Origin: a virus
Virus record (IMG/VR): IMGVR_UViG_3300021964_000215
Location: 1 to 35,882 of that record
Length of the DNA stretch: 35,882 bases
Direction: 5' to 3' (one strand)
In this document: in pieces, positions 773 through 35,882 of the stretch
How positions within the stretch are numbered: position 1 is the stretch's first letter
How the letters are laid out: the number at the start of each line of letters is the position of its first letter
Translations under genes and position numbers: made by a program
The notes under the pieces: generated by a model
Databases searched by the model: none
Seen by the model: only the letters and a program-made list of their open reading frames with translations
What the model was told of the DNA's origin: nothing

Positions 773-1198
773 ATGGACTTCATTTTTGATAAGGAAAAAC
801 TTAAAGAGCTTAACCAAGTTATCTCTTTATACAAGAAGTTTGATAGATACGAAGATGCCACTAGAGAGGAACTTTTCTATCACTTACTTCCCTCGTTTAA
901 AGTGAACCAATATAAAACTATAAAAGAGGACGACAAAGTGATCGCATTTGCAAATTGGGCTATGTTGAACAAACAAGCCGAAGATGAGTACATTAAAACA
1001 GGAGACTTTGCTGATGATGCATGGCAAAGTGGTTTTAGAACATGGATTATTGATGTTGTATCTGAAAAAGATACAATAAAAATTGGTAATTGGATAAGAT
1101 GGTTTTTTAAAAAATTTATGTTAAAAGGTGAGACACTCAAGTGGATGAGATCAGATAACAAATTTAAAGTATATAGATTAGGCAAAAGAGAATATTAA
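773..1198 (+). CDS. HlyC-like (RTX toxin lysine-acyltransferase family) protein lacking the catalytic His
   Basis: This 141-residue protein resembles the HlyC/ApxC family, GNAT-fold enzymes that acylate lysines of RTX toxins. Matching segments, compared from memory with E. coli HlyC, are LLPSFKVNQY (38-47), FANWAML (59-65), DDAWQSGFRTW (81-91) and IIDVV (92-96). Asp94 sits where HlyC has the catalytic Asp92. The family's catalytic His (SPLHRNW in HlyC) falls at FDRY (23-26), where Asp24 replaces it. The protein is also shorter than HlyC (about 170 residues) and lacks its C-terminal part. No RTX toxin gene is visible. Its place among virion genes suggests a protein-modifying or structural role. 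It has no evident Shine-Dalgarno; the in-frame stop at 749-751 limits upstream starts. Confidence 0.7.
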   Translation: MDFIFDKEKLKELNQVISLYKKFDRYEDATREELFYHLLPSFKVNQYKTIKEDDKVIAFANWAMLNKQAEDEYIKTGDFADDAWQSGFRTWIIDVVSEKDTIKIGNWIRWFFKKFMLKGETLKWMRSDNKFKVYRLGKREY

Positions 1199-2442
1199 TG
1201 GGTAAAGTTTTAAGAAAAATTCCAGGTGTTAGAAATGTAGCTAAGGTTATTGATAAAGTAGTACCTAGAGAAATAAAACCTGCATTACCTTTTATTCTTC
1301 CTTTTATTCCTGGTATTGGTCCAGCTTTATCGAGTATGCAAGGAGCTTTAGCGAGCAAATTAGCTTTTGCTGGTAAGTTCGCTCCTTATTTAGCTCAAGG
1401 AATTACGGCTGCTGGAACACAGGCTTTAACTCAAGAAAATGCAAAAGCAAAAGATTTACTTTTAACTGGAGCTTTAGCTGCAGCTCCTGGCGCACTTAGT
1501 GAAGGACTTGGTTCTTTAAAAGAAGCAGGTCAGCTTCCTGAATTTATGACAAAAGTTGGAAAAGGAAAAGATGCAGTTTCTGCTTACGAAAAATTACAAA
1601 GCACATTACAACCAGAAACTTTTTTAGGTAAGGCAGGAATAGTAGCTACTCAAACGGGTTTATCTCAAGCGCCGATAATAGCAAGAATGAATGAACAAGC
1701 ATTAAGAGATTACGAAGCACAATTAAGAGAACAAGGTATTATGGATAGTGCTGAAAGAAGAAACAAAATATTTGGTTATTTTTCAAATGCTGGATATGAT
1801 TCCGAAGAAGTTAATTCTTTCTTAGATAAATATGGTTATGCATATGGTGGAAGAGTTGGTTATCAAGGTGGTGGCAAAATTGGTATGGAAACTTTATATA
1901 GAGGTCCTATGACAGCAGCTACAAGAAGAGTAGTTGATAGAATAGAAGGTGCTGTTCCTAATGAAGATGATGAAAATTATGAAGATGATGATGGATTTAA
2001 GATATATCCAAAAGGAACAACTTCTACTTATGATCTAAATTTAGATGCTTTTAAAGATGAAGACGAAGGTGAAGAAAAATTAGCAAAAGCTTTAAGAAGA
2101 AGTAATTATGATTTAAGTAAAGGATTACAATCAGCTGTTTCTGGTTTAGAAATGGCTTTTGGTAGACCTATTGACATGAGGCCTGAAAGAACAAGATTTG
2201 GTTTAGCTGATGGCGGACTAATGAATTTAAGAACAGGTGAAATGCCAGCTGAAATGGACATGAGAGGCGGTGGATTTATACCAATCGGTGCAAAAGAAAG
2301 AGCTGATGATATTCCAGCAAGACTTTCTAAAAATGAATTTGTGATGACTGCAGATGCCGTAAGAGCTGCAGGTGGTGGAAGTATTAATAAAGGTGCAAAA
2401 AGAATGTATGATCTAATGAACAAATTGGAGTCTAAAGTATAA
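1198..2442 (+). CDS. Probable internal/ejection virion protein with GG motifs
   Basis: A 414-residue protein. The N-terminal third is hydrophobic and rich in Ala, Gly and Pro (about residues 28-110), suited to membrane or protein-tube interaction. An acidic stretch follows near residues 255-290. Two glycine-pair segments occur: YGGRVGYQGGGKIG near 215-228, and ADGGL near 338 followed by MRGGGFIPIG. The C-terminus carries DDIPARLSKNEFVMTADAV, a variant of the D-x-(V/I)-PA-L-x-x-x-EFV motif common in phage tail tape-measure and injected proteins. It is coupled to neighbours by TAATG at both ends and heads a four-gene block ending in a giant protein, which fits an ejection-protein operon. The exact role is inferred from context. 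Confidence 0.7.
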   Translation: MGKVLRKIPGVRNVAKVIDKVVPREIKPALPFILPFIPGIGPALSSMQGALASKLAFAGKFAPYLAQGITAAGTQALTQENAKAKDLLLTGALAAAPGALSEGLGSLKEAGQLPEFMTKVGKGKDAVSAYEKLQSTLQPETFLGKAGIVATQTGLSQAPIIARMNEQALRDYEAQLREQGIMDSAERRNKIFGYFSNAGYDSEEVNSFLDKYGYAYGGRVGYQGGGKIGMETLYRGPMTAATRRVVDRIEGAVPNEDDENYEDDDGFKIYPKGTTSTYDLNLDAFKDEDEGEEKLAKALRRSNYDLSKGLQSAVSGLEMAFGRPIDMRPERTRFGLADGGLMNLRTGEMPAEMDMRGGGFIPIGAKERADDIPARLSKNEFVMTADAVRAAGGGSINKGAKRMYDLMNKLESKV

Positions 2443-3179
2443 TGTCAACAACAACGACTAGACAGCTTAGAGAACCTTTTGTTGAAACTGCTGGGATAGC
2501 CTTAACAGAAGCAGCCTTACCTTATTTAAAAAAAGCTATACCTACAGCAACCTATACTGGAAAACAATTTGTTGCTCCTCAGACTGCATTAGAACAACAG
2601 GCTGCAACTCAAGCAGCTCAGTTACAAGCAGGACCACAAGCTTATCAAGCTTACATGTCACCGTATCAACAAGAAGTCATTGATACTTCTTTAGCAGCTT
2701 TAGAGAGAGAACAAGCTAAAGGTTTAGGTGCATTAAGACAAAGAGCAATACAAGCAGGTGCGTTTGGTGGTGGAAGAGAAGGTGCAGCAATGGGTGAATA
2801 CCAAGCAACATCGGATATTGCAAGAGCTCAACTCGAAGCACAATTAAGACAACAAGGATTTCAACAAGCACAACAAGCAGCAATTCAAGGATTAACAGCA
2901 CAACAAGGTTTAGGCACTTATCAAACTCAACTCGGTGGTGCTCAAAGACAAATTCAACAAGCACAACTTGCAGCGGAACAAGAAAAAGCTAGAGAAGCAG
3001 CATTTGAACCATTTACAAGACTAGGTTTAATTGGACCACAACTTGCATCAGTAATCGGTGGATTCCCTGCTGCAACACAATTACAGACAACACCTCCTCC
3101 AAGCACAACTCAACAATTACTAGGACTTGGTATTGGTGCTGCTGGATTAGGAGGGGCTGTGAAGTCTATATTTAGCTAA
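2442..3179 (+). CDS. Ala/Gln-rich probable DNA-ejection (internal virion) protein
   Basis: A 245-residue protein dominated by Ala, Gln, Gly and Leu. Residues 50-180 should form long helices: SPYQQEVIDTSLAALERE near 73-90, then a Gly-rich turn at AGAFGGGREG, then further Gln/Ala helices. This SPYQQ...GAFGG arrangement is familiar in marine-phage proteins placed among DNA-injection genes, though I cannot name a Pfam family with certainty. The C-terminus (LGLGIGAAGLGGAVKSIF) is a short glycine-zipper-like hydrophobic segment that could insert in membrane. Start and stop overlap neighbours by TAATG. A role resembling the small ejection proteins of podoviruses is inferred. Confidence 0.68.
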   Translation: MSTTTTRQLREPFVETAGIALTEAALPYLKKAIPTATYTGKQFVAPQTALEQQAATQAAQLQAGPQAYQAYMSPYQQEVIDTSLAALEREQAKGLGALRQRAIQAGAFGGGREGAAMGEYQATSDIARAQLEAQLRQQGFQQAQQAAIQGLTAQQGLGTYQTQLGGAQRQIQQAQLAAEQEKAREAAFEPFTRLGLIGPQLASVIGGFPAATQLQTTPPPSTTQQLLGLGIGAAGLGGAVKSIFS

Positions 3180-4189
3180 TGAGTATTTTAAGAAGACCTA
3201 TGTTTAGAAAAGGTGGTAAGGTTGATGGCCGAGGCACAGGTATTACATCAGGTTTAGATACACCTAAAAGAGGATTAGTTGACGGACCAGGCGGATATGC
3301 TGGTGTTGAAGAAACTTACAAAGAAAAGTTAGCAAAATTAAGATCAGAACAACCTAAACTTTCATTAGGTGATTACTTACAAATTGCTGCAACAGGTGCA
3401 GAGATTGCAGGAGCTCCAAGTATGGGAGGCGGTATCAGTGGTGCATTAACAACTGCTGCTAAACCTTTGGCTACATTAGGTAGAGGACTCGCTGGAAGTT
3501 TTGGTGCAAGAGAAAAAGCAACTTCTGATTTAGCTGGAACTTTAACAGGACTAGAAATTGAAAAAGAAATTGGTATGGCGAAAGTCACAAAACCTTTTGA
3601 AAGTGAAGTTCAAATTAATTTTATTGATGAATACTATAAAGACAAAATTGCAGCAGCTAAAACACAAGTTGAAAAAGATATATTAATTAGACAAAGAGAA
3701 GAAGAAAAAAGAACAATTATGAGAGGCGGTAACTTAGCTTCTAAATATAAAGTGTTCCAACCAGAAATTGTTAAAAACGCACAACAAATTGTTAGAAAAT
3801 CTTTAAAAGAAACTTTAGGTAGAGAGCCTACTGCAGATGAATTAGCAAAAGGAGTTGCTAAATATTTATCAACCATTGCAAGTGAGTTTGGTCAAAACTT
3901 AAAAGACGGTGGTCGTGTAGGATATCAAGAAGGTGGCGAAGTTATGAATCAAACTCAACAAGAAATGGGAGTTGAAGGAGTTGAGACACAAGGAGAAGAA
4001 GCCATGTCTCAAATTAGTTATAATGAATTAAGAGCAAGATTACCTCAAGAAATTACAGATGATATTGTAAAATTATTAGCAAACAGTTATGAAGCGTTAG
4101 CTGATTTTGCTGAAATTAGAACACAAGCAGACGTAGACAACTTTAATCAAAAATATAACGTACAATTAGTCTTACCAGCGGAGGCATAA
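3179..4189 (+). CDS. Probable internal virion protein with GG motifs
   Basis: A 336-residue protein. The N-terminus is basic and carries RKGGKVDGRG at about residues 10-19. A Gly/Ala-rich hydrophobic region spans about 63-110 and is followed by a long charged helix-prone section. A second glycine-pair segment, KDGGRVGYQEGGE, lies near 242-254 and closely matches YGGRVGYQGG of the gene at 1198. A 65-residue acidic helical C-terminus follows. It overlaps both neighbours by TAATG. No enzyme motif is visible. Position, GG motifs and Gly/Ala hydrophobic stretches group it with the other probable ejected proteins. Confidence 0.68.
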   Translation: MSILRRPMFRKGGKVDGRGTGITSGLDTPKRGLVDGPGGYAGVEETYKEKLAKLRSEQPKLSLGDYLQIAATGAEIAGAPSMGGGISGALTTAAKPLATLGRGLAGSFGAREKATSDLAGTLTGLEIEKEIGMAKVTKPFESEVQINFIDEYYKDKIAAAKTQVEKDILIRQREEEKRTIMRGGNLASKYKVFQPEIVKNAQQIVRKSLKETLGREPTADELAKGVAKYLSTIASEFGQNLKDGGRVGYQEGGEVMNQTQQEMGVEGVETQGEEAMSQISYNELRARLPQEITDDIVKLLANSYEALADFAEIRTQADVDNFNQKYNVQLVLPAEA

Positions 4190-29558: not shown

Positions 29559-31028
29559 ATGAACTTAGATAAAATAAATTTAGATAAACTACCTCCTGAC
29601 GCCAAAAAGGAATTTATGAAGTATGCCATTAAGTTGGCAGAAAAGAAAAAAAGCTCCAAGGTCCACGATGATTTCATGTCGTTTGTCAAACACGTTTGGC
29701 CAGAATTTATTGAAGGTAAGCATCACAAAATTATTGCAGAAAAATTTAATAGGATTGCAAAAGGCGAACTCAAGCGTGTGATCATTAACATGCCACCGCG
29801 GCACACGAAGTCTGAATTTAGTTCCTTCCTACTCCCTGCATGGATGATTGGAAGAAATCCTAAACTCAAAATTATTCAATCCACACACACCACAGAACTT
29901 GCAGTGCGTTTCGGTCGTAAAGCAAAAACACTCATGGACACCGAAGAGTACAAACAAGTTTTTGATACAAGGCTTAGAGAAGATTCTCAGGCCGCGGGTA
30001 AATGGGAAACATCCCAGGGCGGCGAATATTATGCAGCGGGTGTTGGATCAGCCATCACGGGCCGTGGAGCGGATTTATTGATTATCGATGACCCACACTC
30101 AGAGCAAGACGCGCTGAATCCTTTGTCCATGGAACGCGCTTATGAATGGTATACATCAGGACCACGTCAGCGTTTGCAGCCAGGCGGAACCATTGTGTTG
30201 GTCATGACAAGATGGAACACCAAAGATCTAACAGGTAAGCTTTTAAAAAATCAAAAGGAAATGAAATCCGATCAATGGGATGTGATTGAGTTTCCTGCTA
30301 TCATGCCGTCAGGTGGTCCTGTATGGCCAGAGTTTTGGAAACTGGAAGAACTTGAAGGAGTGAAAGCATCTTTGAGTATTGGAAAGTGGAACGCGCAGTG
30401 GATGCAAAATCCAACGGCAGAAGAAGGATCGATCATTAAACGTGAATGGTGGAACGTGTGGGACCATGATTACGTGCCAACTTTGCACCATGTGATTCAA
30501 AGTTATGATACCGCTTTTCTTAAAAAAGAAACCGCAGACTACAGTGCCATTACCACCTGGGGCGTTTTTTATCCATCTGAAGACAGCGGACCGAATTTAA
30601 TTTTACTCGATGCCGTCAAAGAAAGGCTCGAGTTTCCAGAACTTAGACGTAAAGCTTTAGAGCAATATAGCTATTGGAATCCTGAAACAGTTGTGATAGA
30701 ATCTAAGGCTTCTGGACTTCCATTGACGTACGAGCTACGAAAGATGGGAATCCCCGTTGTCAATTTCACTCCTAGTAAAGGGAATGATAAACACGCTCGA
30801 GTGAACTCAGTAGCACCTATTTTTGAAGCAGGTCAAGTCTGGGCTCCAGAACAAAAGTTTGCAGAAGAGGTAATCGAGGAGTGTGCGGCGTTTCCCTATG
30901 GAGACAATGATGATCTTGTCGATAGTACGACTCAAGCGCTTATGCGTTTTAGGCAGGGAGGTTTTGTGGAACATCCTGAAGACTATCAAGACGAGCCACT
31001 CGAACAACAGGAGCGTAGCTACTATTAA
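29559..31028 (+). CDS. terL: Terminase large subunit
   Basis: A 489-residue packaging ATPase and nuclease. Walker A is the variant PPRHTKSE (79-86), Walker B is LLIIDDPH (173-180), and MTRWNTKDL (216-224) is the coupling motif. The C-terminal RNase H-like nuclease shows SYDTAF, VIESKASG and DDLVDSTTQA with its acidic residues. The overall pattern matches the TIGR01630 group of phage terminases. No Shine-Dalgarno is visible before the ATG; an A/T stem lies there instead. The stop overlaps the next gene (TAATG). The small subunit is encoded about 4.7 kb away on the other strand. Confidence 0.95.
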   Translation: MNLDKINLDKLPPDAKKEFMKYAIKLAEKKKSSKVHDDFMSFVKHVWPEFIEGKHHKIIAEKFNRIAKGELKRVIINMPPRHTKSEFSSFLLPAWMIGRNPKLKIIQSTHTTELAVRFGRKAKTLMDTEEYKQVFDTRLREDSQAAGKWETSQGGEYYAAGVGSAITGRGADLLIIDDPHSEQDALNPLSMERAYEWYTSGPRQRLQPGGTIVLVMTRWNTKDLTGKLLKNQKEMKSDQWDVIEFPAIMPSGGPVWPEFWKLEELEGVKASLSIGKWNAQWMQNPTAEEGSIIKREWWNVWDHDYVPTLHHVIQSYDTAFLKKETADYSAITTWGVFYPSEDSGPNLILLDAVKERLEFPELRRKALEQYSYWNPETVVIESKASGLPLTYELRKMGIPVVNFTPSKGNDKHARVNSVAPIFEAGQVWAPEQKFAEEVIEECAAFPYGDNDDLVDSTTQALMRFRQGGFVEHPEDYQDEPLEQQERSYY

Positions 31029-32374
31029 TGTCAATTTTAAAATTACTGTTTGCACTTAACCCGAAGAATCTCAAACTTGTAAAAGCTGCAGAGATGACTC
31101 CAAAGATGGCACAAGAGATTGATTCCTTTCTAGGTAAGATGGGTGCAGTCGTTAATATTGGAAAGTATGAACTAACTCCAAGTCAAGCTAAGTATTGGAG
31201 AGCCCAAAGAAAAGAACTTACGAAATACGAAAACAAATTAAAAGAACTGCAAGAGAGAAATAAACTCTCAAAGAAAAAAGAAGGTATAGAAACTTTACCT
31301 GAAGCAGACATTATAGATTTTCCTGTTAAACCTAAACCACCCGAAGGTGAACCATTTAAAGACGGTGGACCCGTTGATAAAAAAGATGAAGACACGGTTC
31401 CACTAGATCCAAATGAGTTTGATGAAATGTTTAGAAAAATGTTTAGTGAATGGGAATGGGAAAAGAAAAAAGATTCTTGGAAAGATAAAGACTATGCAGA
31501 CGGCGGACGCGTTGAAATGGTGGCAGGTGGAATTACAAAAATAAAAAAACTTGCAGACCTTGCAAAGAAAACAAAATCAAAATTAGGTGAAGCTCCAAAG
31601 ACAGATTTAAAAAAAGTTAGAGCAAGAGCTGCATCAGATAAAAAATCAACAGAAGAACTTGCAAAGTCAGAACAGATTCCTGTGAGAGATGACACAGGAG
31701 GAGTTTCGAGAAGAGATTTTTTAAAAGGAACAGGTGCAGTCGGAGTTATGGCTGCAACAGGAACAGGAATTAAGGCAGCACGAAAAGCAAAAAAAGTAAA
31801 AGAAGGAAGAGACATGCAAATCATATTGAGAAAAGATTATGATGAAGGAGATTATGCAGGAATCACTGCATCAATTACTCCTAGTACTAGAAAGGGATTT
31901 GAGTTTTTAGAAGAAATGGTAAAGCAAGGAAAAATAAGAAGACCTGGATCAACAAAGGGAGGCATGTTTGATACTTACTATGTTGATATTGATGATTTTA
32001 CTACTAAAGGAAATGACATCACAGTATTTAAAGATTTGAAAAATAGAGATCTTAAAGCTGAAGTTTTGCAAAGAGAAGTAGGTCTTGATCCTGCTCGTGA
32101 TATTGCTGAAGATTTTATTGAGGCAGTAGATTTAAGAAGCAAAAAAAGTGTTTTAACAGATGATTATAGAAACTATGGTGTATCTTCAGGGCAGTTTGAA
32201 GACGACGCAACAGAATTTTTTGCAGACATCATGCAACCTAAATCTATGAAGCAACAGTTGCAAGATAGATTAAAAAAAATTGAACTACAAAATAGAATCG
32301 ATGCCATCAATAAAAAATATCGTACGGAAAAAGCAGACGGCGGTGTTGCAACGTTGTTCGAGGAGCGTGGATAA
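31028..32374 (+). CDS. Virion-module protein with internal Tat-like motif and GG motifs
   Basis: A 448-residue protein between the large terminase and the portal. The first 100 residues are a basic helical part with a coiled coil. GG motifs occur as KDGGPVDKK (near 110), ADGGRVEMVAGG (157-168) and, at the C-terminus, ADGGVATLFEERG. An internal SRRDFLKG (227-234) is followed by an Ala/Gly/Val hydrophobic stretch (VGVMAATGTGI) and then AARKAKK, the exact outline of a twin-arginine signal but 227 residues from the start. The rest is charged alpha/beta. It overlaps both neighbours. Probable internal or portal-proximal virion protein; function unknown. Confidence 0.7.
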   Translation: MSILKLLFALNPKNLKLVKAAEMTPKMAQEIDSFLGKMGAVVNIGKYELTPSQAKYWRAQRKELTKYENKLKELQERNKLSKKKEGIETLPEADIIDFPVKPKPPEGEPFKDGGPVDKKDEDTVPLDPNEFDEMFRKMFSEWEWEKKKDSWKDKDYADGGRVEMVAGGITKIKKLADLAKKTKSKLGEAPKTDLKKVRARAASDKKSTEELAKSEQIPVRDDTGGVSRRDFLKGTGAVGVMAATGTGIKAARKAKKVKEGRDMQIILRKDYDEGDYAGITASITPSTRKGFEFLEEMVKQGKIRRPGSTKGGMFDTYYVDIDDFTTKGNDITVFKDLKNRDLKAEVLQREVGLDPARDIAEDFIEAVDLRSKKSVLTDDYRNYGVSSGQFEDDATEFFADIMQPKSMKQQLQDRLKKIELQNRIDAINKKYRTEKADGGVATLFEERG

Positions 32375-34122
32375 TGTTTGAACAAATTTTAGATAATGTC
32401 ACTGGAAAATCATCTGACGCTACAATCAAAGCTAGAAATATTTTAGCTCAAACACCAAGAGGAACTACGATTAATATTTCAGATCTTGCAAGACAAACAG
32501 GAGCACAAAGAAAAACATTAACGAATTTAATTAATAGAGAATTTCCAAATCAATTTAATTTATTGGGTAGATCGGAAGCAAGTAAACAGGTTCAACAAAA
32601 ACTAAAAGAAAAAAGAGCAGCAACAGCTGTAACTAAACCTACATTAGTTTCTGAAGGTAGAAAATTTGTTGATGTCAGATTTCCAAATGAAGAGATGAGA
32701 AAAGAATACTTAAATGATTTACAAAAGAAAAAATCAGCACCTAAAAGTTCATCAAAAGAATTTTCTAATAAAGCATTAGCTAAAAAATATTTTGGCGATG
32801 AGAAAAAGGCTTTTCAAATTGAAAGAATGAATCAAGTATTAAGTAAACAGAAAGGTCTTGAATATGTAAAAGGAAAACCTTCTCAATCTTATATTACAAG
32901 ACAATCAAGAAAAAAAGAAAGTCAAAAATATTTAAGTGATTTTGAAAAAGGTATTTTAAAAAGACAAGAAGTTCAAAAAAGAACTTTAAACAATTATTTT
33001 AAAAACAACTCAGGGCAGTTGTATAAAAATAAAGATTTGAAAAATTTAGTGGATGCTAAATTAGTTGATGGTAAAATAGATTTATCTCCAAGGTATAAAA
33101 CTGAAGCAGAATATAAAAATTTAGCAAAATCTGGAAAATTATTTGATGAATACGATATTTCTCCAATTAGAGGAGAGAAAAGAAGTATTCAGTATCCAGT
33201 TAATAAAAACATATCACCAGGAAAATTTAATCAAGGTTTTATTAGACAAGTAGAAAGTTATTTTGAAAAAACAAAAGGAGATACTTCTCCTAAAGTTGTA
33301 CAGAACAAAAAACAAATTAATAATTTTTTAAAAAAATATGGTTATCGTTTGGAAATACCAGGAGAAGGTTATATTGGTGCAAAATCATTACCCGCAATTA
33401 ATAGAAAAACAGAGGCACTCCCAAATATTAAAAACACATTAAATAAAATAGGTCTTGGAAATTTATCTCAATCTAAACAAACATTTAGAGCTCAAGGTCT
33501 CGGTCCAATTTTTGTCGCTGAATTACCTTTATACACAATGGCAGAAGGAAAACCTTTTGTAGAAACTTTAGATCCTTTAACTTTTGGTGCAGTTAATCCT
33601 GTAACTTACGCAGCTAAAAAACAAGCAGGTCTTTCTGATGCAGAAAAACTTGCAATGCAAAGAGAAAAAAATCTTAATTTACTTAGAACTGGAATTGGTA
33701 ACACATCGAGACAAGAAATGTTAGGAATGAAAGATCCTGAGTATAGAGCACTTGGTTCAGGTAAACCAAGTTACTTAGATTTCTTAATACAGAAAATGGA
33801 GCAACCTGATTATGTTGGATCTTTAACATCAGGGCAACAAAAGATAGAAGACAAAGCTCAGGAACTAAGACAAAAAATAATGACACCAGAAAAAACGGAA
33901 GCTGCTAAAACAAGATATGAAAGTTTTCAAAAAGCATTTCCAATCGTACCTTTAGTTACTAATTTTTTAGAATCAATGATTACAGGAGAAAAAGTTAATC
34001 CATATCAAAAAACTCTTGAACAAATTCAAGGCCCTACATATCAAGAAAATCAAATATACAAAAAAGGTGGAATTGTAGCATTAGACGAGTATAAGGAATT
34101 AAGGAAAAAATATGGACCGTAG
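32374..34122 (+). CDS. Virion-module protein with N-terminal HTH-like region and C-terminal GG motif
   Basis: A 582-residue, very basic protein. Residues 20-62 (TIKARNILAQTPRGTTINIS, then DLARQTGAQRKTLTNLINRE) look like a helix-turn-helix or winged-helix domain. A long Lys-rich region follows, then a Gly/Ala/Pro part with a mildly hydrophobic segment (near 370-390). The C-terminus has KKGGIVALDEYKELRKKYGP, the same GG motif family as its neighbours. It begins on the stop of the preceding gene and overlaps the next by 11 bases. Charge and HTH suggest DNA contact inside the capsid; this is inference. Confidence 0.68.
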   Translation: MFEQILDNVTGKSSDATIKARNILAQTPRGTTINISDLARQTGAQRKTLTNLINREFPNQFNLLGRSEASKQVQQKLKEKRAATAVTKPTLVSEGRKFVDVRFPNEEMRKEYLNDLQKKKSAPKSSSKEFSNKALAKKYFGDEKKAFQIERMNQVLSKQKGLEYVKGKPSQSYITRQSRKKESQKYLSDFEKGILKRQEVQKRTLNNYFKNNSGQLYKNKDLKNLVDAKLVDGKIDLSPRYKTEAEYKNLAKSGKLFDEYDISPIRGEKRSIQYPVNKNISPGKFNQGFIRQVESYFEKTKGDTSPKVVQNKKQINNFLKKYGYRLEIPGEGYIGAKSLPAINRKTEALPNIKNTLNKIGLGNLSQSKQTFRAQGLGPIFVAELPLYTMAEGKPFVETLDPLTFGAVNPVTYAAKKQAGLSDAEKLAMQREKNLNLLRTGIGNTSRQEMLGMKDPEYRALGSGKPSYLDFLIQKMEQPDYVGSLTSGQQKIEDKAQELRQKIMTPEKTEAAKTRYESFQKAFPIVPLVTNFLESMITGEKVNPYQKTLEQIQGPTYQENQIYKKGGIVALDEYKELRKKYGP

Positions 34123-35089
34123 AAAATTTTTAAAATTAATGACTGGTGTTGCGTCATTACCTGTAATAGGTAGTTTAGGTAAAGGAACACAAAAAGCTAA
34201 AAAAGGAATTGTGGCTGCAGGACAAGCAGCAAAAATGACTCCAACACAATCTATTCTCCCAGATTTAATTGCAACAGTTATGAAAAAAGGAAAAGAGTTT
34301 GATACAGGTATTCCAAATTCAATGGGTAAACAATACAAAGGGGTGCGAGTTTATGAATCTCCTGATGAAATCAATGTAGAGTTTATGACTGATAAAGGAA
34401 ACGGAGCCTTTGCTTCTGTTAAAAAAGCAGATTATGTAGTTGATGAAAAAACAGGTAAAGCAACTTATGTTCCACCCGACTACGAAGAAGGACAACAAAT
34501 ATACAGAGCATACGGACCAGATGATTATTCAAAAGATGTAGAGTTTGAAATTATGGACAGCGTTTCTGGTATTAAAAAAATTGCAATGGAAGGAAAAGTT
34601 TCTGAAAAAATAAAAGACGTTGCTGGAAGAATCGCAAAAAGAGAAGGTAAATCAGGCGGCGGTATTGCAGGTTCACCTCCTGTGTATCAAACTAATGATC
34701 CAAAAGAAGCACTCAAAGAAATTATTAGACGCACTCCACAATTAGGTGGGTCAGGAGAAGTACTTCCTATTTACAGTAATGAAAATATGAACATAGAAAC
34801 CTATCTTGGATCACCACAAGATGCGGTAAGTTATGGACTAGGAGCATTTACAGACAGAGGAGATATTATGCTTAATCAGCTAAGAAGTGGAGACAAACAG
34901 ATAGGATTTGAATTTGGTACAACATCAACTCCTAATACGACTTTTGGTCTTGGTTATACAGAAGGACAAGGACCACGATTCGGTCTTCAATATGAACGAA
35001 GATTTGCAGAAGGAGGTGTTGCATCAGGCCCACCACCAGAAAGAGGACCTATGCCACAAGGCCTTGAAACTTTATTCCAAACAAGATAG
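34112..35089 (+). CDS. Virion-module protein with N-terminal Tat-like signal
   Basis: A 325-residue protein. The N-terminus reads MDRRKFLKLMTGVASLPVIG, a near-perfect twin-arginine signal (RRKFLK, then a hydrophobic stretch and a basic segment GKGTQKAKK); no clear A-x-A cleavage site follows. The body is charged and Gly/Pro-rich, with beta-type segments near the end (FGTTSTPNTTFGLGYTEGQG, resembling an outer-membrane-like strand). The C-terminus has AEGGVASGPPPERGPMPQG, another GG motif. It overlaps the previous gene by 11 bases and precedes the portal by 9 bases. Export, membrane insertion during ejection, or mimicry are all possible. Confidence 0.7.
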   Translation: MDRRKFLKLMTGVASLPVIGSLGKGTQKAKKGIVAAGQAAKMTPTQSILPDLIATVMKKGKEFDTGIPNSMGKQYKGVRVYESPDEINVEFMTDKGNGAFASVKKADYVVDEKTGKATYVPPDYEEGQQIYRAYGPDDYSKDVEFEIMDSVSGIKKIAMEGKVSEKIKDVAGRIAKREGKSGGGIAGSPPVYQTNDPKEALKEIIRRTPQLGGSGEVLPIYSNENMNIETYLGSPQDAVSYGLGAFTDRGDIMLNQLRSGDKQIGFEFGTTSTPNTTFGLGYTEGQGPRFGLQYERRFAEGGVASGPPPERGPMPQGLETLFQTR

Positions 35090-35098
35090 GATGTCGCG

Positions 35099-35882
35099 AT
35101 GGCAGAAATAGATAAATCATTACCCAATCAACCTGAAGATATAGCTCCAGAAGAAGCAGTGGAGGTTGTTGAAGAACAAACAACTGAACCGACAACAGAT
35201 GAAATTGAAGTGGTTACCACTGAAGATGGTGGTGCTGAAATTTCATTTGACCCAACAGCAACAGAGATGCCTGAGATGGGTCACTTTGCAAATCTTGCAG
35301 AAGTATTAGACGACGACATTTTAGATCCCATTGGATCACAACTTACATCAGATTATTTAGACTACAGACAATCTAGAAAAGATTGGGAAGATACTTACAA
35401 AAATGGTTTAGATCTTTTAGGTTTTAAATATGAAAAAAGAACAGAACCTTTTAGAGGTGCATCAGGTGTAAACCATCCAGTCTTAGCAGAAGCCGTTACA
35501 CAATTTCAAGCACAAGCGTATAAAGAACTTCTTCCAGCAGATGGACCTGTCAGAACACAAGTTTTAGGAAAAACAGATATCGCAAAAGAAGATCAAGCAA
35601 AACGTGTTAAAGATTTTATGAATTACCAAATCATGGACCAGATGAAAGAGTATGAACCTGAGTTCGATCAAATGTTATTCTACCTTCCCCTGTCAGGATC
35701 AACATTTAAAAAAGTTTACTATGATGAACTTTTAGATCGTGCAGTTTCTAAATTTATACCTGCCGATGATTTGGTAGTCCCTTATTCTGCAACTAACTTA
35801 GATGATGCAGAGTCGGTCATTCATGAAATTAAAATTTCATCTAATGAACTAAGAAAACAACAAGTCGGTGGTTTTTACAAAG
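35099..35882 (+). CDS. Portal protein, P22-like (N-terminal part, cut by window end)
   Basis: The frame opens at ATG 35099 and runs off the window with 261 codons. After an acidic, Glu/Thr-rich leader (1-60) come DYLDYRQSRKDWEDTYKNGL (near 84-103), EKRTEPFRGASGVNHPVLAE, and AQAYKELLPADGPVR, the typical N-terminal part of P22-like portals of marine phages. Later LPLSGSTFKKVYYDE and PADDLVVPYSATNLDDAE match the clip/stem side of that family. The portal is the DNA gate of the capsid and docks the terminase. The rest of the protein, and presumably scaffold and capsid genes, lie beyond the window. Confidence 0.85.
   Translation, partial: MAEIDKSLPNQPEDIAPEEAVEVVEEQTTEPTTDEIEVVTTEDGGAEISFDPTATEMPEMGHFANLAEVLDDDILDPIGSQLTSDYLDYRQSRKDWEDTYKNGLDLLGFKYEKRTEPFRGASGVNHPVLAEAVTQFQAQAYKELLPADGPVRTQVLGKTDIAKEDQAKRVKDFMNYQIMDQMKEYEPEFDQMLFYLPLSGSTFKKVYYDELLDRAVSKFIPADDLVVPYSATNLDDAESVIHEIKISSNELRKQQVGGFYK

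Follow-up and report, generated by a model that had tools for sequence, protein, structure and literature searches.

Why should a phage protein encoded between the large terminase subunit and the portal begin with what looks like a twin-arginine (Tat) export signal? The question is raised by a 35,882-nucleotide stretch of DNA, IMG/VR record IMGVR_UViG_3300021964_000215, positions 1 to 35,882 (hereafter the window), which belongs to an HTVC027P-like pelagiphage. The host is probably SAR11, as judged from the relative HTVC027P. On the plus strand, the genes are ordered terL, p2, p3, p4 (the protein in question), and portal (Table 1). The terL product is 74% identical to that of Pelagibacter phage HTVC027P and 78% identical to that of phage 023Pt_psg01. 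A non-exhaustive literature search found no paper on Tat-type signals in phage packaging-region proteins.

Table 1. Features of the terL-portal slot in the window.
Feature	Coordinates	Strand	Details
Large terminase subunit, terL	29559..31028	+	Upstream border of the slot; phrog_38, 2.5e-105
Neighbour p2	31028..32374	+	448 aa; within the slot
Internal Tat-like signal of p2	31700..31765	+	GVSRRDFLKGTGAVGVMAATG; SRRDFLK (R228-R229); residues 226-245
Neighbour p3	32374..34122	+	582 aa; 11-base overlap with the start of the p4 ORF
p4	34112..35089	+	325 aa; ATG start; within the slot
Tat-like signal of p4	34112..34190	+	n-region MDRRKFLK, 12 uncharged residues LMTGVASLPVIG, then SLGKGTQKAKKG
Layout of p4			Tat-like signal; alpha/beta domain (~47-145); 7-strand beta meander (~216-294); C-terminal GG motif and ETLFQTR
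Beta meander of p4	34757..34993		Residues 216-294
Portal	35099..35881	+	Truncated at the end of the window; downstream border of the slot; phrog_1216, 7.2e-19; 68% identity to HTVC027P gp43

The N-terminus of p4 reads MDRRKFLKLMTGVASLPVIGSLGKG (MDRRKFLKLMTGVASLPVIGSLGKGTQKAKKG), and AAGGA was seen by eye immediately 5' of the ATG. The signal opens its own open reading frame, like a normal Tat signal. Its two arginines (residues 3-4) are invariant in nine relatives, and its maximum KD19 of 1.14 is under the usual transmembrane threshold. A clear signal-peptidase site was not seen by eye. Full-length p4 has no match in Pfam or NCBIfam, including their Tat profiles, and a tblastn search against named phages returned none. 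The pattern RRxF[LMI][KQ] occurs twice in the 27 plus-strand ORFs of at least 100 aa in the window, against a mean of 0.014 and a maximum of one in 2000 shuffles.

The second Tat-like signal, in p2, is matched by the Pfam TAT_signal profile over residues 226-245 (29.5 bits, cutoff 22.7, 6.1e-07) and by NCBIfam TIGR01409 (25.5, cutoff 16.7). This copy, SRRDFLKGTGAVGVMAATG, is internal and unrelated to the p4 module. The domain downstream of it is 60% identical to that of the p2 protein of locus L005, which keeps RRGFLK and differs from the window p2 in the hydrophobic stretch. Relatives of this domain were found on only two contigs, one of them that of the window, and both have RR. Other p2 relatives, L007 among them, are 94% identical to p2 up to residue 226 and continue with unrelated sequence from the start of the signal. 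Because the p2 relatives switch sequence exactly at the signal, the part that bears it is a module that can be swapped.

The module of p4 opens with RRxF[L/M]K, continues with some 12 uncharged residues of weak hydrophobicity and a conserved lysine, and has its small alpha/beta domain behind a flexible linker. The combination of signal and small domain is phage-specific and is fused to many different N-terminal parts. It is present in more than 450 viral stretches, and a module scan of viral contigs gave at least 524 encoding stretches; RRxF was the search pattern of that scan, which was left out of the conservation counts. The earlier note described a classic N-terminal Tat signal on a single protein. 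The signal is real and N-terminal in p4, but it has many carriers and is usually internal: most relatives are proteins of up to 1245 aa with the signal about 170-190 residues before the C-terminus. Apart from p4 itself, the signal stands at the ORF start in about 10 of 104 loci (11 minus one truncated contig) and is internal in the rest. In most relatives the module thus ends a longer protein, in an arrangement that resembles an internal (signal-anchor) Tat signal. The signal of the relatives is preceded by a GG motif, GGRIGYKDGPDQPG-RRKFMKIMGGLAALPIIGKFFK or GGRIGFKKGMD-RRTFMK..., and followed by the small domain, PSYFFDLVNKIK...YKNYEL.EDLTTGD..., and a C-terminal GGGIARMLGE. HTVC027P (MN698241) gp42 occupies the same slot and has a homologous module at its C-terminal end; it differs in being a fusion of p3-type and p4-type proteins, with SKRKFIK about 730 residues in, and in having KR, not RR (SKRKFIKLGAGLMSLPIIG). 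Translation start at the methionine of MDRR or MSRR inside the carriers was considered but dropped: PDQPGRR, which has no methionine, is found in many of them, and no well-spaced Shine-Dalgarno sequence was seen by eye at the internal MDRR/MSRR methionines.

Among 84,980 prokaryote genomes, the module scan picked up 194 pattern matches and no relative, and a search of 297 SAR11-family genomes, run with no positive control, gave nothing. For the module domain, PHROGs offered no consistent family and a PDB sequence search no match. Of 14 modules, 11 have a match to the Pfam TAT_signal profile at E<=1. Weak matches to Pfam Dicistro_VP4 (best 7e-4) cover the hydrophobic segment in 9 of 14 modules (alignment A3).

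The position of the signal protein between terL and the portal, to which the earlier note had drawn attention, is fixed in relatives. Wherever terL and the portal are present, they are upstream and downstream of the module, respectively (74 of 74 ordered loci, none in the wrong order). In the relatives 023Pt_psg01, HTVC023P, and DSL-LC04 the slot lacks the RRxFLK module, which is therefore accessory: phages of this type can do without it. The slot protein gp30 of HTVC023P (L010 13490-14095) starts with MSKKSRRRNRALGVIAGLMGAKALGMFG, a similar layout of basic residues, apolar residues, and lysine without RRxFLK. In phage DSL-LC04, the slot is occupied by an annotated PcfJ-like protein (L012 13508-15985), which suggests that the slot hosts exchangeable cargo proteins.

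Conservation of the motif was measured in a scan that took as query the domain behind it by itself (alignment A4), which avoids selection for the motif. The scan identified 80 loci, of which six are truncated and 74 include upstream sequence; they all belong to one phage lineage with many near-duplicates, which limits the independent evidence in these numbers. Homologues that lose the arginine pair while keeping the rest of the protein, which would have spoken against a Tat signal, were looked for: all 74 testable loci keep RR or KR within [RK]RxF[LIM][KQR], with isoleucine in place of phenylalanine in one. Among the 52 distinct segments, the first motif residue is arginine in 46 and lysine in six, and RK and KK never occur. 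The second arginine is present in all 52 and the phenylalanine in 51; L, M, or I follows, and then K (46), Q (5), or R (1). The positions before RR and between RR and F are free, and in almost all segments a lysine follows at position 17 or 18. A separate count of 111 motif instances gave 108 RR and three KR. That KR is the sole variant of RR at the motif favours a Tat reading; a bacterial Tat signal that lacks one arginine, in TtrB, also has KR. The other basic pairs of the same proteins are KK (54%), RK (23%), KR (17%), and RR (6%), and since KK dominates there, charge alone cannot explain RR at the motif. The codons of the motif arginines vary among the homologues.

The stretch after the motif behaves differently. 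It varies by group (KIMGGLAALPIIGKFF, KVAGAGGAVAIAKLLG, KMLAGLGGGIAAAKTG) and falls into only four loose clusters, which further limits the independent evidence; the two main groups differ widely. It is composed of 11-13 uncharged residues with a mean KD of 1.61, contains no aspartate or glutamate in any of the 52 segments, and does not exceed a KD19 of 1.6, the level of transmembrane-like stretches, in any of the 74. Judged by sequence, a fixed motif next to a weakly hydrophobic core kept only in composition is the constraint pattern known for Tat signals. The strict preference for arginine together with the weak hydrophobicity favours recognition by TatC over a plain membrane helix, and selection for Tat-type recognition very likely acts on the signal. 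The motif noticed on the protein starting at 34112 is Tat-like in every position and conserved across divergent relatives.

The Tat consensus is S-R-R-x-F-L-K, with phenylalanine as the commonest semi-conserved residue, and lysine is poorly tolerated in the arginine pair (PMC7317946). That article refers to Hinsley 2001 for one natural bacterial Tat signal without one of the arginines. Like the signals described by PF10518 and TIGR01409, the phage module has RR, F at +2, L or M at +3, and K or Q at +4, then a weakly hydrophobic, acid-free h-region, a basic residue, and a compact domain. It differs from them in being mostly internal in large proteins, in its core of 11-13 residues followed by a conserved lysine, and in having no clear cleavage site, and its export is a prediction. 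The probable host has the machinery: TatC was found in three of four SAR11 genomes, the fourth of which (0.7 Mb) may be partial, and TatC of Pelagibacter ubique is mentioned in PMC3827258. A SAR11 Rieske protein has a Tat signal of the NRRDFL type, NRRDFLFTATAAAGAVGVGAAVWPLV, with an uncharged core of about 20 residues versus 11-13 in the phage module. Internal Tat signals do exist, and the known ones, such as that of the actinobacterial Rieske protein Sco2149, follow Sec-inserted helices (PMC5449189). The phage carriers resemble such dual Sec-Tat proteins in that the twin arginines lie inside the chain ahead of a weak helix and a domain that folds at the C-terminal end. However, a transmembrane-like stretch (KD19 >1.6) upstream of the signal is present in five of 68 phage carriers and absent from 63, and an internal signal without preceding Sec-type helices speaks against the Tat reading in most relatives. 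The short core, the lack of a clear cleavage site, and the missing profile match of full-length p4 also count against it.

The predicted structure of p4 has a mean pLDDT of 53, with values of about 70-81 for residues 51-100. A model of the module based on 59 sequences has pLDDT of ~70-88 over residues 47-110 and below 50 over the signal and linker. In the module model, the signal and linker are ill defined and the alpha/beta domain behind them is compact, a typical signal-plus-passenger layout. A PDB fold search with the module domain gave no match at E<=0.001; the best (VIA Z 5.8, to TipC2) is within the range of common arrangements. The viral library returned a single homologue, from an uncultured virus. 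The beta meander of p4 matches outer-membrane barrels (BrkA, Z 8.7; PapC, Z 8.6). A beta-meander piece ending in FA.GG is shuffled among carriers, before or after the signal, and lies N-terminal to it in L028, L034-L036, L042, and L043. A barrel role of p4 is not claimed: the pLDDT of the meander is ~55-66, and similar meanders are N-terminal to the signal elsewhere.

We tentatively favour the reading that the module functions as a Tat targeting signal, by which the domain behind it is tethered or exported, export itself being predicted. The observed motif, its conservation, the slot, and the host Tat system suggest that the pelagiphage uses the folded-protein export machine of its host; from them we infer the TatC binding, topology, export, timing, and domain function of the following scheme. 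The phage protein would be made in, or injected into, the host cytoplasm, where its motif would dock on host TatC. The weak helix would insert as a hairpin, and the small C-terminal domain would cross to the periplasmic side in its folded state. The long forms would keep their N-terminal part in the cytoplasm, resulting in a membrane-tethered phage protein.

A somewhat unlikely alternative is that the carriers are virion-packaged ejection proteins, whose membrane-active helix enters the inner membrane during DNA delivery and resembles a Tat signal by convergence. The terL-portal position of all ordered loci is consistent with this, as are links to an ejection-type operon located at 1198-4189 in the window and at gp82-gp84 in HTVC027P, which includes the phrog_4287 DNA ejection protein. 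HTVC027P gp82 is 65% identical to an L137 carrier over 71 aa (E 4e-22), and the protein encoded at 3179-4186 in the window is 59% identical to the slot proteins of L019 and L021 over 32 aa. As slot proteins share modules with the ejection operon, they may be packaged in virions; the shared modules point to virions, not to export. The Dicistro_VP4 matches and GGRxGY motifs common to both sets of proteins also fit an ejection helix. However, a plain membrane-active peptide needs neither arginine over lysine nor F at +2 and L or M at +3, and the motif never has RK or KK, although lysine prevails in the rest of these proteins. Furthermore, 023Pt_psg01, whose terL is 78% identical to that of the window, has no module, which is therefore not essential for ejection. 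The motif GGR(I/V)GY, found in both ejection-operon and terL-portal slot proteins, is possibly a packaging or cleavage tag.

Delivery in the virion and Tat targeting could also be combined, although we consider this unlikely. A virion-delivered protein would then be re-exported early through the host Tat system by its internal signal, which would bring the small domain to the periplasm. In this unlikely reading, the signal would act behind a soluble N-terminal part of up to ~1100 residues from the first minutes of infection onward, and the re-exported domain could serve the phage in the periplasm, for example by excluding rival phages. Polyvalent or injected phage proteins (Iyer et al. 2017, PMC5512222) are likewise large, modular, fast-changing, and encoded among packaging genes, and the PcfJ-like protein of DSL-LC04 is in the same slot as the module carriers. 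The carriers differ from them: polyvalent proteins combine at least two known effector or antirestriction domains in one chain, and Pfam and PHROGs found no known polyvalent effector, antirestriction, or enzymatic domain in eight carriers. The text of PMC5512222 does not contain the term 'signal peptide'.

It is doubtful that RRxFLK and its helix are a docking motif for assembly or packaging, with the portal, terminase, or capsid as its partner, that brings the variable slot proteins into the head. The strict terL-portal location and the modular, rapidly changing carriers would fit a cargo tag, but the GG motif, present in ejection-operon proteins as well, is the better candidate for one. The same slot is filled without RRxFLK in the three relatives named above, and a hydrophobic stretch so free to change is odd for a protein-protein interface. 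A decoy that engages TatBC of the host in order to jam or occupy it, not for transport, would draw on the same motif evidence as a transported signal and on the missing cleavage site; it is very improbable, as a conserved folded domain, which a decoy does not need, is always present behind the signal. Basic-hydrophobic segments are common, but a chance resemblance without function is refuted for practical purposes by the two occurrences in the window against 0.014 expected and by conservation in 74 of 74 homologues with varied arginine codons.

Between terL and the portal lies a large family of genes without annotation, and the module offers a way into it. If the signals work as Tat targeting signals, the most abundant marine bacteria have phages that use their hosts' folded-protein exporter. 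A Tat signal would then be functional even behind a long soluble N-terminal region, a point of direct relevance to substrate recognition by TatC.
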